Below are positions 2,988 through 17,011 of a stretch of DNA of 24,134 nt, piece after piece. Below the pieces are notes generated by a model, which made no database searches, had not been told where the DNA came from, and saw only the letters and a list, made by a program, of their open reading frames with translations. The position numbers and the translations under genes were made by a program. Numbering within the stretch: position 1 is the first letter of the stretch; each line of letters starts with the position of its first letter. Source of the stretch: a virus; the IMG/VR virus record IMGVR_UViG_3300032323_000135, positions 1 through 24,134 of that record. The stretch is one strand, 5' to 3'.

Positions 2988-3950
2988 ATGGCAGTTACAT
3001 CAAGAGAGACTTTATCGGAATATTGCTTAAGAGCATTGGGAGCTCCAGTTCTTGAAATCAATGTGGACGACGACCAATTAGAAGATCGCATTGATGAAGC
3101 ATTAGATGTGTTTAGATTGTATCACTATGATGGTATTGAAAAAATTTATCTTAAGCATAAAATTACTGCGTCAGAATTAAATATCACTGGAACAAATGCT
3201 GCATCTTTTGCAGCTACTTCTAAAATTACTGGCGGAACTTCAGGTGCAACTGCTATTATTGAATCAGCCAAAGATAATAACACTTTATACATCTCTAGAA
3301 CTATCGGTGCTTTCGTTGCTAACGAAACTATTACTAATCCTGATGGAACTACTGCTACTTTAACAGCTTCAAGTTTTTATACTGCTGGTGATGTTGATAA
3401 TGGTTGGATTCCTATTCCTGATTTAGTTTATGGTGTGTCAAGAGTACTACCACTATATCAAGGAACATCCTCTTCTCGTTCTATTTTTGATTTACAGTAT
3501 CAACTTAGATTAAACGATTTGTATGATTTGTCAAGTACTTCGTTAATTTACTATACGACAGTAATGAGTCACTTAGCAACACTTGATTTAATATTAAACG
3601 GAAAACCAATTTATCGTTTCAATCGTTTAATGGATAAACTTTATGTTGATATTGATTGGAAATCTATTAACAAAGTTAATGTGGGTGATTACTTTATTGT
3701 TGAAGCATATCGTGCTTTGGATCCAACAGAGTTTTCAAAAGTGTGGAACGAACCATGGTTAAAGAAATATGTAACTGCTCTGTTTAAAAAACAATGGGCA
3801 ACTAATCTTAAAAAGTTTTCTGGTTTACAACTTCCAGGTGGTGTCACTCTGGATGGCAATTCACTTTATAATGAAGCGGTGCAAGAAATTATTGCACTTG
3901 AAGACGACATTCAAAACAAGTCTGCTCCGTTAGACTTTTTCCTGGGATAA
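2988..3950 (+). CDS. gp13: Neck protein gp13 with an inserted beta-rich module
   Basis: 320 aa, close to T4 gp13 (309 aa). In T4, gp13 and gp14 form the neck that closes the filled head and accepts the tail. The N-terminus carries the conserved gp13 pattern of marine T4-like phages (YCLRALGAPVLEINVDDDQ, then EALDVFRLYHYDG), and the family pattern resumes at IPIPDLVYGVSRVLP (about residues 141-155) and QYQLRLNDLYD. Between them, about residues 63-130 are a Thr/Ala/Gly-rich segment with ITGGTSGATA that looks like an insertion. The ATG is one base after the fibre stop codon, and gp14 begins 3 bases after this stop, so the genes are co-transcribed. Identification rests on sequence pattern plus the 13-14-15-17 order. 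Confidence 0.88.
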   Translation: MAVTSRETLSEYCLRALGAPVLEINVDDDQLEDRIDEALDVFRLYHYDGIEKIYLKHKITASELNITGTNAASFAATSKITGGTSGATAIIESAKDNNTLYISRTIGAFVANETITNPDGTTATLTASSFYTAGDVDNGWIPIPDLVYGVSRVLPLYQGTSSSRSIFDLQYQLRLNDLYDLSSTSLIYYTTVMSHLATLDLILNGKPIYRFNRLMDKLYVDIDWKSINKVNVGDYFIVEAYRALDPTEFSKVWNEPWLKKYVTALFKKQWATNLKKFSGLQLPGGVTLDGNSLYNEAVQEIIALEDDIQNKSAPLDFFLG

Positions 3951-3953
3951 AAT

Positions 3954-5012
3954 GTGGCTAGAAATGTATACTTCTCTCAAGGAACTGCCAACGAACAATA
4001 TCTAATTGAAGATATTATCGTAGAATCGCTGCAGGTTTATGGGCAAGATTTTTATTATATTCCAAGAACGCTTGTAGCCAAAGATAATATTCTTGGTGAA
4101 GATCGTTTATCAGAATTTAAACAAGCATATGGTATTGAAATGTATCTCGAAAATGTTGATGGGTTCGAGGGACAAGGTGCTTTTATTCAAAAGTTTGGTT
4201 TAATGATGGAGCAATCAGCAACTCTAACAGTTTCTCGTCGCCGTTGGGACCAACTTGTTGGAAGATTTAATCAGGCTCAATTACCAAATAGACCTTGCGA
4301 GGGAGATTTACTTTACTTTCCTTTGACTAAAGGGTTATTTGAAATTAAGTTTGTTCAACATCAAAATCCATTTTATCAACTTGGTAAACTTTATGTTTAC
4401 AAACTTCAAGTTGAATTGTTCCAATATGCTTCTGAACATATTGATACTGGTCTAAAAGATATTGATGTATTTGAAACACTTAAATCTTATGATACTTCTT
4501 ATGCAAGAAATGCAACTGGATCAGTGACTGGGGTAACAATAACAAATCAAGGAAGTGGATATACATTAACTCCGACAATATCACTTTCGGGTGGCGGTGG
4601 AACTCAAGCATTCTCACCAGCTACATTGTCCTTGACGAAAACTGCTGATAAAATAACTGCTATATCTATTACAAATGTTGGAACTGGATATGATACTGTT
4701 CCAACAGTAATTATTGGAACTGAATGGGTTTCTGGTGCTTCAGTTAGCACTAATGCTCAAGTATTTTACTCTACTAGATTATATACTGCTACTGTTGGTG
4801 GAACATTTAGTTCAACTGCGCCGACACATACATCAGGTGCTGTAAGTAATGGAACAGCAACATTAACTTTTGCTGGTGTTAAAGCAACTGCTACAGTTAC
4901 TATTGAACCTAATGCTGATTTACCACAATCTTATGGTGATAATATTAAATTTAAAAATGAAGCAAGCGATTTAATATTTGATACAAACAATCCGTTTGGA
5001 GAAATTCAGTAA
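3954..5012 (+). CDS. gp14: Neck protein gp14, GTG start, with GSGY-repeat insertion
   Basis: 352 aa against 256 aa for T4 gp14, the partner of gp13 in the head-completion neck. The N-terminal ~185 residues carry the family pattern (ARNVYFSQGTANEQYLIEDI; YGQDFYYIPRTLV; LENVDGFEGQG). The C-terminus (DNIKFKNEASDLIFDTNNPFGEIQ region) is also family-like. The extra length is a block at about residues 187-325 with two GSGY/GTGY...P(T) beta repeats starting at residues 200 and 243. The start is GTG at 3954; the nearby ATG at 3952 is in another frame that does not give this protein. The stop overlaps the gp15 start (TAATG), indicating translational coupling. Confidence 0.87.
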   Translation: MARNVYFSQGTANEQYLIEDIIVESLQVYGQDFYYIPRTLVAKDNILGEDRLSEFKQAYGIEMYLENVDGFEGQGAFIQKFGLMMEQSATLTVSRRRWDQLVGRFNQAQLPNRPCEGDLLYFPLTKGLFEIKFVQHQNPFYQLGKLYVYKLQVELFQYASEHIDTGLKDIDVFETLKSYDTSYARNATGSVTGVTITNQGSGYTLTPTISLSGGGGTQAFSPATLSLTKTADKITAISITNVGTGYDTVPTVIIGTEWVSGASVSTNAQVFYSTRLYTATVGGTFSSTAPTHTSGAVSNGTATLTFAGVKATATVTIEPNADLPQSYGDNIKFKNEASDLIFDTNNPFGEIQ

Positions 5013-7465: not shown

Positions 7466-9901
7466 ATGCCTTTTCAACTTAGTCCAGGTGTTGCAGTCGT
7501 AGAAAAAGACTTTTCATCAATCGTTCCAGCAGTTAGTTCTTCTGTTGGTGCTTTTGCAGGTTCTTTTGCTTGGGGTCCAGTATTGCAACCAGTAACAGTT
7601 TCTTCGGAAAATGTTTTGGTTCAACAATTTGGTAAACCTAACGACTCCAACTTCGCTTCATTTTTTTCAGCAGCGAACTTTTTATCTTACGCTAATAATC
7701 TGTTGCTCGTTCGAGCAGATTCTACCAATGGTAAAAACGCTGTTTCTACACCAACAGGTGGATTAGCAACCTTAACAATAAATGCTGCTGGTTCAGGTTA
7801 TAGCTCTACTGCTGCTGCTCCAACCGTAACAATAAGTGCTCCAGAAGAATCTGGTGGTATACAAGCTGTAGCAACTGTTACTCTGTCGGGTGGTGCAATT
7901 ACTGCCGTAGCAGTAAGTTCTGGTGGTTCTGGTTATGCTACTGCTCCAACTGTTAATATTGCTACAACAGCTGGTACTGGTGCTACATTTACTGCCGTTC
8001 TTACACCAGCAACTATTGCTGGTACTGCTATTTCTGGCACTGGTGGTCAATTCACTTGTACTGCAACTACTATTGCTGTTGGTAATTTAATTGCTATTTC
8101 TGGCACATTAAGTGGTGATGGTGCTATTACTGGTTACTCAACTCCAACAACATATAAAGTTTCTGCTATCACTGGTAGCGGTTCTTCTGTTACTGGATTT
8201 ACTTTAACTACTACTGCTGATGTGGCAATTGTTACTACTGCTGGTACTACAACTGGTTTAACATTTAGTAATAATTCAAATCAATCAGTTGCTTCCGTTA
8301 CTGTTGTAGATGGTGGATCTGGTTATAAAGGCACTGTTACTGCGACATTCTCAACTGGTACTGCTACAGCTGGTGCTGTTACTATTGCATCTTCATCTAT
8401 TTCCGCTGCAACAATTACTACCGCTGGAACTGGATACTCTGCAGCTCCAACTATTACTGTTGCTGCTCCTCCATCAGGAACTACTGCTACATTAAACAGA
8501 ACTATTAGTACTGCTGGTGTAAAAATTAGAAATTCTGAACATTATCTGTCTTCATTCTCATCTGGTGCTGCTGTTACTGGAGAATTTGCTGCTAAATTCC
8601 CAGGTGCACTAGGAAACTCATTAAAAGTTGCTTACGCTGACTCAGCAACTTTTGCTACTTGGACATATAAAGCTGAATTTGATGCTGCTCCAGGAACTTC
8701 TACTTACGCTGCTGGTGTAGGTGGTTCTGATGATGAAATGCATATTATTGTTATCGACGAAGATGGCGATTGGACTGGAACTCCAGGTACTGTGTTAGAA
8801 AAATTTGCATTTGTTTCTAAAGCTGGCGATGCTAAAAAGCCAGATGGAACAAACAATCACTATAAAGATGTAATCAATGCTAACTCTGACTACATTTGGT
8901 GGACTGATTACCTAGCTGGATCTGACTGGGGTACTAATGCTTCTGGTAATGCATCTACTCTATTAGCGTCTGCTGGTTCATTCAGTTTAGCTGGTGGTGT
9001 CGATGACTACACAATGTCTGCTGGTCAACAACAAACTGCATATGCTCTTTTTGCTAACGCTGAATTGTATGATGTAAGTTTAATTATTGCTGGTAAAGCA
9101 AATGCTGCTACTGCAAAAATTATTGCTGACTTGGCTCAGACTCGTGCTGACTGTGTTGCCTTTATTTCTCCACAAGATAACTCTACTGGTGATGTTATTA
9201 TCGGTAACTCTTCAACCGAAACTGATGCAATCGTAACATACCGCAATGCAGTTAATGTGATTCACTCTTACGCTGTTATTGACTCTGGTTACAAATATCA
9301 ATACGATCGTTATAACGACAAGTATCGTTATATTCCATTGAATGCTGATGTGGCAGGATTGTGTGCTCGTACTGATTATACTAATGACCCATGGTTCTCT
9401 CCAGGTGGATACAATCGTGGTCAGATTAAGAATGTTGTTCGTTTGGCTCATAATCCAGACAAAACAAATCGTGACACTCTTTACAAAGCTGGTGTTAATC
9501 CAGTTGTTTCATTCCCAGGACAAGGAATTGTTCTATTCGGTGATAAAACAATGCAGACTAAACCAAGTGCTTTTGATCGTATCAATGTCCGTCGTCTGTT
9601 TATTGTTCTTGAAAAAGCAATTGCTACTGCTGCTAAGTTCCAACTCTTTGAGTTTAACGACAGCTTTACTCGTGCACAATTTAAGAACTTAGTAGAACCA
9701 TTCCTCCGTGATGTTCAAGGTCGTCGTGGTATTATTGATTTCCGTGTTAAGTGCGACGATACTAACAACACTGGCGAAGTTATTGACCGCAATGAATTCA
9801 TTGCTGATATCTTTATCAAGCCAAATCGCTCTATCAACTACATTACTCTGAACTTTGTTGCTGCTCGCTCTTCTGCGAACTTCACAGAGATCGGTGGTTA
9901 A
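7466..9901 (+). CDS. gp18: Tail sheath protein gp18 with a ~250-residue beta-repeat insertion
   Basis: 811 aa against 659 aa in T4. gp18 is the contractile sheath. The N-terminus (FQLSPGVAVVEKDFSSIVPAV; VGAFAGSFAWGPV; NNLLLVRA) and the region from residue 352 on (VKIRNSEHYLSSF; GEFAAKFPGALGNSLKV; C-terminal NFVAARSSANFTEIGG) are clearly sheath. Residues about 98-348 are a Thr/Ser/Gly/Ala-rich insert with four GSGY-type units starting at residues 109, 154, 284 and 321 (consensus G(S/T)GY...(A/P)PT(V/I)) and a different beta module in between (about 180-275). AAGGAG at 7453-7458 lies 7 bases before the ATG. A late-promoter-like CTAAATA lies 67 bases upstream of the start. Confidence 0.93.
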   Translation: MPFQLSPGVAVVEKDFSSIVPAVSSSVGAFAGSFAWGPVLQPVTVSSENVLVQQFGKPNDSNFASFFSAANFLSYANNLLLVRADSTNGKNAVSTPTGGLATLTINAAGSGYSSTAAAPTVTISAPEESGGIQAVATVTLSGGAITAVAVSSGGSGYATAPTVNIATTAGTGATFTAVLTPATIAGTAISGTGGQFTCTATTIAVGNLIAISGTLSGDGAITGYSTPTTYKVSAITGSGSSVTGFTLTTTADVAIVTTAGTTTGLTFSNNSNQSVASVTVVDGGSGYKGTVTATFSTGTATAGAVTIASSSISAATITTAGTGYSAAPTITVAAPPSGTTATLNRTISTAGVKIRNSEHYLSSFSSGAAVTGEFAAKFPGALGNSLKVAYADSATFATWTYKAEFDAAPGTSTYAAGVGGSDDEMHIIVIDEDGDWTGTPGTVLEKFAFVSKAGDAKKPDGTNNHYKDVINANSDYIWWTDYLAGSDWGTNASGNASTLLASAGSFSLAGGVDDYTMSAGQQQTAYALFANAELYDVSLIIAGKANAATAKIIADLAQTRADCVAFISPQDNSTGDVIIGNSSTETDAIVTYRNAVNVIHSYAVIDSGYKYQYDRYNDKYRYIPLNADVAGLCARTDYTNDPWFSPGGYNRGQIKNVVRLAHNPDKTNRDTLYKAGVNPVVSFPGQGIVLFGDKTMQTKPSAFDRINVRRLFIVLEKAIATAAKFQLFEFNDSFTRAQFKNLVEPFLRDVQGRRGIIDFRVKCDDTNNTGEVIDRNEFIADIFIKPNRSINYITLNFVAARSSANFTEIGG
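7757..8509 (+). repeat. Repetitive insertion block inside gp18 (GSGY repeats)
   Basis: This in-frame block encodes four GSGY/GTGY units (codons at 7790, 7925, 8315 and 8426) rich in ACT/GCT/GGT codons, interrupting the conserved sheath sequence. The same kind of unit is inserted in gp14 at 4551 and 4680. The boundaries are estimated from where conserved sheath motifs stop and resume. Confidence 0.7.
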
Positions 9902-9930: not shown

Positions 9931-10527
9931 ATGGCAAATATTGCTGATTTTAAAGCCCAGTTGATTGGTGGCGGTGCTCGCCCTAATCAATTCCGAGTGG
10001 ACTTAACTTTCCCTAACTATGTAACACTAGGTGCGATTGCTGGTTTACAAGGTCAATTCCTTTGTAAAGCAACCACATTACCAACTTCTCTATTAGAGAA
10101 TATTGGTATTCAATATCGTGGTCGCCAAATTAATTTTGCAGGCGAGCGTACTTTTGAACAGTGGCAAATTACTGTTTACAATGATACAACTTTCAATATT
10201 AGAAATGCTTTTGAAGTCTGGTCAAACGGAATTCAAAACAACTCTACAACTTTAGGTCGTACTAATCCTCGTGATTATCAAGTTGATTTGTCAGTTAATC
10301 AATTAGATCGTAATGGTTCTACTGTTAAAAACTATTTGTTCCGTGATGCATATCCAGTGGCCATTGGTCCAGTTGGATTGGATTATGAAACAACTAACCA
10401 AATTGAAACATTTGATGTGACATTCCAATACAATTACTGGACTTCGAACACTTCTACTGATGGTGCTGCCTTTGGCGTTAATGCTACGGTCAATACTCCA
10501 GTTGGTTCGTTCCCACTCCCACTCTAA
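9931..10527 (+). CDS. gp19: Tail tube protein gp19
   Basis: 198 aa (T4 gp19 is 163 aa). It is the stacked-hexamer tube inside the sheath through which DNA passes. The family pattern is clear: ANIADFKAQLIGGGARPNQF, then FLCKATTLPTSLLENI, YRGRQINFAGERTFEQW, and DTTFNIRNAFEVW. The extra ~35 residues are mainly at the C-terminus (TSNTSTDGAAFGV onward). AGGAG at 9919-9923 sets the start at 9931. It follows the sheath gene as in T4. A hairpin overlaps its stop codon and may reduce read-through into gp20. Confidence 0.95.
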   Translation: MANIADFKAQLIGGGARPNQFRVDLTFPNYVTLGAIAGLQGQFLCKATTLPTSLLENIGIQYRGRQINFAGERTFEQWQITVYNDTTFNIRNAFEVWSNGIQNNSTTLGRTNPRDYQVDLSVNQLDRNGSTVKNYLFRDAYPVAIGPVGLDYETTNQIETFDVTFQYNYWTSNTSTDGAAFGVNATVNTPVGSFPLPL

Positions 10528-16477: not shown

Positions 16478-17011
16478 ATGGCTCAAATACTCGCATGTCC
16501 CGTACCAACAAATTTAAATCCATTATCTCCTAATGGGTTCAAGTTCAACATCGAAAAATTAGGTGAGGTGGAATATTTCTGCCAAGAAGTTAATATCCCA
16601 GGAATTACAATTGGTGATCCAGTTTTGGCTAACCCATTTCGTGCTATTCCACTTCCTGGAGATCACTTAACTTATGATACTTTAAATGTTAAATTTTTAA
16701 TCGATGCAAATATGGAAAACTACATTGCTATCCATAATTGGATTGTAGCACTGGGATTCCCTGAAGACTATGATCAATACATTGATTACATAAACACAAA
16801 TCAGTTTAATGTTCTTAGCGAACTTGCAAAAAGTTATTCTGATGCTACTTTGCAAATATTATCTGGTGCAAACACACCAGTCAAAACATTAAACTTTAAA
16901 GATCTTGTACCAAGAAGTCTTGGCTCACTTACCTTTCAATCAACAAACCAAGATGTTTTGTATCTCGTTGGGGATGCAACATTTAGTTTCTCTTATTACA
17001 CCTTTGCATAA
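16478..17011 (+). CDS. Tail protein with tube-like (gp19-like) sequence features, in the gp3 position
   Basis: 177 aa, late-expressed. The protein shares the layout of the gp19 tube protein in this window: NGFKFNIEKL then FCQEVNIPGITIG (compare NQFRVDLTF then FLCKATTLP), then a P-G-D/G-E turn with DTLNVKFLIDANMENYIAIHNWIVALGF (compare WQITVYNDTTFNIRNAFEVWSNGI). This suggests a tube-fold protein such as a tube-baseplate or tube-end component. In cyanophages the gene after gp23 is, as I recall, annotated as tail completion protein gp3, and T4 gp3 is of similar length (176 aa), so gp3 is the main alternative; I cannot confirm that by sequence. The start is fixed by TATAAATA at 16465 and lack of another Met until residue 75. 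It is followed by the sigma70-type promoter of uvsY. Confidence 0.75.
   Translation: MAQILACPVPTNLNPLSPNGFKFNIEKLGEVEYFCQEVNIPGITIGDPVLANPFRAIPLPGDHLTYDTLNVKFLIDANMENYIAIHNWIVALGFPEDYDQYIDYINTNQFNVLSELAKSYSDATLQILSGANTPVKTLNFKDLVPRSLGSLTFQSTNQDVLYLVGDATFSFSYYTFA

Follow-up and report, generated by a model that had tools for sequence, protein, structure and literature searches.

An array of GxGY units at the domain I site of a T4-type tail sheath protein, a possible surface-binding coat

The DNA analysed here (the window) is a 24,134-base record of an uncultured virus with a T4-type structural region, in which the genes appear to follow the order 13-14-15-17-18-19-20-21-22-23; the 13-, 14- and 15-like genes, the sheath, the tube and the protease were found by profile and the terminase by tblastn, and the portal, scaffold and capsid were assigned from a reading of the translations alone. 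Gene 18 (Table 1) encodes a T4-type tail sheath protein, gp18. Its product scores above the Pfam cut-offs for PF22671 (N-terminal domain III region; Gp18_domIII_N, residues 29-83), PF04984 (subtilisin-like sheath domain; Phage_sheath_1, residues 528-696) and PF17482 (C-terminal domain; Phage_sheath_1C, residues 698-798), and its best fold match in the PDB is T4 gp18. It shares less than 60% identity with the closest isolate sheaths, and the same holds for the window terminase compared with isolates. Elsewhere in the window, a tail-fibre-like protein (2-2986), its start truncated by the contig end, carries a Peptidase_S74 chaperone domain at its end; the gp13-like protein (2988-3950) contains an unrelated-looking GGTSGATAIIES-type insert at about residues 60-135 that also matches phrog_358 and tail-fibre profiles; and a second tail-tube-like gene (16478-17011; phrog_45) lies past the capsid gene, separate from the gp19-like gene (9931-10527).

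Table 1. Features of the sheath gene and of the neck gene that also carries GxGY units.
Feature	Residues	Position (nt)	Strand	Basis
Gene 18, tail sheath protein	811 aa	7466..9901	+	PF22671, PF04984, PF17482, phrog_23 tail sheath; T4 gp18 in PDB by sequence and fold
Insert at the T4 gp18 domain I site	~93-352	7742..8521	+	missing in empty-site relatives; T4 and kin have domain I there
GxGY unit 1	97-143	7757..7894	+	unit profile 38.6 bits (DNA search); 41.2 bits (independent profile)
GxGY unit 2	140-180	7883..8011	+	47.3 bits (DNA search); 37.2 bits (independent profile)
GQFTC module, between units 2 and 3	179-277 (99 aa)	8000..8296	+	shared with some 110 viral contigs, where it lies in sheath as well as other proteins
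GxGY unit 3, diverged	274-309	8285..8395	+	26.9 bits (DNA search); 18.0 bits (independent profile)
GxGY unit 4	307-349	8384..8515	+	48 bits (DNA search); 32.6 bits (independent profile)
gp14-like head-closure (neck) gene, with its own GxGY units at 4515-4631 and 4644-4721		3954..5012	+	PF11649, phrog_460; unit profile; local match to sheath insert

Between the two conserved halves of the sheath, four units of about 42 aa and a 99-aa module lie in frame, within a stretch (residues 83 to 528) that has no Pfam match. The preliminary description had placed such an insert, flanked by conserved sheath sequence, at nucleotides 7757-8509, and this was borne out within a few codons: Pfam sheath domains lie on both sides, and relatives with an empty site align across it with a linker of about 20 aa, setting the borders given in Table 1. 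The distinct module proposed at about residues 180-275 is likewise present as a conserved block, separate from the GxGY units. As for the units themselves, a profile trained on relatives, without the window and without its closest kin (L003-L006), recovers all four at 18.0-41.2 bits, against a best score of 8.0 bits in 300 shuffles of the insert. The motif G(S/T)GY...PT(V/I), which had been ascribed to each of them, fits three; unit 3 keeps GSGY and has lost the PT(V/I) part ('GSGYKGTVTATF'). Across 29 diverse GxGY units the first glycine, the third-position glycine and the tyrosine are invariant, partly by choice, since the units were selected by that motif. The insert is composed to 74.5% of G, S, T, A and V, with 3.1% charged residues. 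Neither the insert nor the unit profile retrieved a solved structure by sequence search, and an Ig-like domain or another curated family was ruled out for the units and for the window module, which match no Pfam or other curated family. Because the record is an uncultured-virus contig, an assembly artefact or chimaera might be suspected; the same in-frame order of units and module recurs in the independent contigs L003-L006 and in about 30 others, which refutes this explanation and leaves it a negligible probability.

In a set of 80 viral contigs that carry a relative of the sheath, the domain I site holds a linker of about 20 aa, two units (insert of ~102 aa), three units (L040), four units (~185 aa), four units plus the module (~275 aa; the window and L003-L006) or about eight units (~350 aa). 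The empty site is frequent (L052, L066, L074 and others): the sheath of L052 reads straight across it as 'AALNAVSSGSAVKIKNNADY', and a near-empty site was found in the isolated cyanophages and pelagiphages examined. The gp18 relatives do not align continuously over the region: their site is either empty or holds a different number of units. The repeat array had been called unusual for a sheath, and this has to be restricted, as arrays at the domain I site are common among uncultured T4-like relatives; it stands for isolated phages to the extent that tblastn against INPHARED gave no match to the sheath array spanning more than about 27% of its length. On a tree of the sheath core, from which the insert was left out, the presence or absence of the array needs at least seven changes, three of them forced by starred branches; the empty-site pair L052/L077 is nested in a clade of four-unit sheaths, and L040, with three units, is sister to L026, with four. 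From this repeated gain, loss and resizing we infer that the array cannot be needed in general for sheath assembly or contraction, and would thus be dispensable for sheath function.

Structure prediction gave a consistent picture of the units. In the AlphaFold2 model of full-length gene 18, pLDDT is 80-92 across most of the units and about 40 across the module, while the insert modelled alone, from a deeper alignment of 31 inserts and module fragments, reaches a mean pLDDT of 91.7 and shows three strands per unit, so that two units provide six strands. We predict that two units pair into one six-stranded barrel and that each subunit would bear a barrel, the module and a second barrel. In the graded series of relatives, arrays mostly comprise two, four or about eight units (L040 excepted), which would agree with a pair as the folding unit. 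A Foldseek search of the insert-alone model against the PDB returned no significant match (best E 0.2), whether to a lectin, a carbohydrate-binding module or another fold, and T4 gp18 was absent among the 50 matches listed; the non-significant matches included many F1-type ATPases, as well as phage tailspikes and depolymerases. The N-terminal domain of F1-type ATPases is a six-stranded barrel.

According to PMC3004832, T4 gp18 carries domain I (residues 98-188) as an insertion in domain II; it projects outward and forms no gp18-gp18 contacts. When the window sheath is aligned with those of T4 and six further T4-like phages, all of which carry domain I at this site, the insert falls at the same position, entering domain II after about residue 97. 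Since domain I of T4 protrudes without sheath-sheath contacts, it is fair to suppose, as the preliminary description did, that the insert is displayed on every sheath subunit, and we consider the architecture and exposure of the insert very probable. Domain I of T4 binds the baseplate and the retracted long tail fibres, and its mutations G106S, S175F and A178V block fibre retraction (PMC3004832); the published residues G106, S175 and A178 agree with the T4 sequence in Met-less numbering only. In T4 gp18 (L083:3537-5516), the G106S site is the first glycine of G-S-N-Y, which corresponds to the invariant first glycine of GxGY, and in the alignment Aeromonas T4-like phages have G-Q-G-Y at the position of G-S-N-Y. 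Together, these correspondences hint that T4 domain I could be a worn two-unit array. The unit profile gave no match to T4 gp18, and a profile-profile comparison of the units with T4 domain I gave a weak, in-register match (probability 2-9%, P 0.004-0.02). A two-unit array as a proven description of T4 domain I was set aside, since unit profile, profile-profile comparison and fold search fail to establish homology.

GxGY units are not specific to sheaths; they recur as a general module in the virion proteins of the tail. Single large phage records contain 16-17 units each by the unit profile, distributed over the sheath, a wedge-type protein of about 935 aa, a gp14-like protein of about 310 aa and a short protein starting MYFK(N/K)FPK, which we take to be gp53-like. 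In the window itself, the gp14-like protein (3954-5012) has, behind its two GxGY units, a EWVSGASVSTNAQVFYSTRLYTAT-type module that is found inside the sheath array of L024 and L031. A module called AW sits inside the arrays of relatives, and two of its copies reach E 0.004 and 0.019 with the CBM5/12 profile, below the Pfam cut-off; a carbohydrate-binding module was rejected for the window's own sheath module, as neither this module nor the gp14 copy matches CBM5/12.

The GQFTC module, too, occurs in more than one kind of virion protein. Of its 79 loci, some of which are fragments, 33 lie in sheath proteins, 23 in wedge-type proteins and 23 in others; a search of the isolated phage collection did not find it. 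When 52 distinct modules are placed in a tree, the window copy groups with sheath and wedge copies, away from other sheath copies, and a single clade of all sheath modules is rejected (AU p 0.0017, for a group chosen after the tree was seen). Judged from this rejection, transfer of the module between sheath and wedge genes is very probable. In L149:1843-4857 and L157:1615-6240, copies are nested, by eye, within other GQFTC copies as if self-inserted. Exchange of modules between unrelated virion genes and self-nesting would also suit another explanation, in which recombining beta modules pile up at a tolerant exposed loop and the array acts as a passive spacer or shield that adds bulk, stability or protection but binds no particular partner; the variable copy number, the repeated gain and loss, and the low-complexity composition of the insert are all in line with it. 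However, the unit motif and the reading frame persist even between widely diverged copies, pointing to selection that acts at least on the fold, and we regard the passive role as somewhat unlikely.

Units also occur outside phages. A hand-written two-unit consensus matches many bacterial loci, low-complexity matches being possible, and upon rechecking with the unit profile all 80 of those retrieved carry units; several of these proteins start, by eye, with signal-like N-termini. In the cyanobacterium Nostoc foliaceum, a 700-aa contractile-injection sheath with adjoining tube genes (L259:1373-3472) carries six GxGY units, the only ones in that genome at the threshold used, and none were found in 144 other genomes sampled from its family. 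Both ends of this sheath match All3325 and the Algoriphagus sheath, and the six units replace about 33 residues of All3325. Because the sheath family and the insertion site are different from those of the window phage, we read the six-unit array as an independent insertion.

These occurrences bear on the strongest mechanistic rival, which owes its standing to T4 genetics, namely that the array could serve as a docking strip, with units on neck, sheath and baseplate binding parts of the phage itself such as the retracted long tail fibres, the baseplate or the whiskers. Domain I of T4 does bind baseplate and retracted fibres and loses fibre retraction through the three mutations described above, T4 G106 coincides with the invariant first glycine of GxGY (with GQGY in the Aeromonas kin), and units on neck, sheath and wedge would line the path of a retracted fibre. 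Docking leaves unexplained, however, why units occur in secreted-looking bacterial proteins and in a contractile-injection sheath; moreover, empty-site relatives are frequent and homology between T4 domain I and the units was not established by profile, profile-profile or fold search. We consider docking unlikely.

We propose instead that a modular surface domain occupies the T4 domain I site, most likely as a multivalent surface-binding coat, to which we assign a probability of roughly 0.45. At an outward-facing site, as deduced from T4, every sheath subunit would display the insert, which may act as a weak multivalent binder of the host envelope or of extracellular polysaccharide and so keep the tail close to the cell. 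Neither assembly nor contraction of the sheath would require it, and tail genes acquire, drop and exchange units and modules. In favour of adhesion, the units are found on several exposed tail parts, in secreted-looking bacterial proteins, in a non-phage sheath and beside a weakly CBM5/12-like module. It is weakened by the fact that the known partners of T4 domain I are baseplate and fibres of the phage itself and not the host, that the CBM-like module lies below the Pfam cut-off and is absent from the window sheath insert, and that the bare composition of the insert fits a passive spacer equally. The adhesive role as such is put forward tentatively, at somewhat less than even odds.

Sheath proteins are usually seen as machinery rather than as recognition surfaces, and natural relatives with 0, 2, 3, 4 and about 8 units offer a ready comparative series for the role of sheath decoration. 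That GxGY units are present on neck and baseplate proteins and also on the sheath of a contractile injection system points to a common stock of surface modules on which contractile machines may draw, as yet undescribed in Pfam and NCBIfam. In its broadest and unlikely form, this would make the GxGY pair a general snap-in surface unit that has independently coated phage and bacterial contractile-injection sheaths, with T4 domain I as its reduced form and GQFTC as a mobile in-frame cassette between virion genes. We found no description of a GxGY sheath array in the literature searched, which does not prove that none exists.

Several known systems resemble the insert in part. According to Evseev et al. 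2022 (PMC9230969), a survey that covers 112 models, sheaths carry extra beta domains away from the tube, mostly Ig-like sandwiches, for which roles in stability or adsorption are proposed; these are extra beta domains like the window insert, but the sections consulted mention no countable GxGY array and no sharing with neck or baseplate. Ig-like domains of tailed phages, described in passages quoted there as exchangeable surface modules in several virion proteins and thought to be weak carbohydrate binders (PMC9230969), are exchangeable like the units, but neither the units nor the window module match an Ig domain or any other Pfam entry. Among contractile injection sheaths (All3325, 7B5H; Algoriphagus, 7ADZ), the related sheath of Nostoc foliaceum carries six units of the window type, although the sheath family and the insertion site differ from those of the window phage. 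The closest counterpart is T4 gp18 domain I (PDB 3FOA), which protrudes from the same site of the same protein family and has been described as a six-stranded barrel, the form also predicted here for a pair of units; it is, however, a single domain of about 90 aa in which the profile recognises no unit, whereas the window insert extends over about 260 aa with four units and a module.
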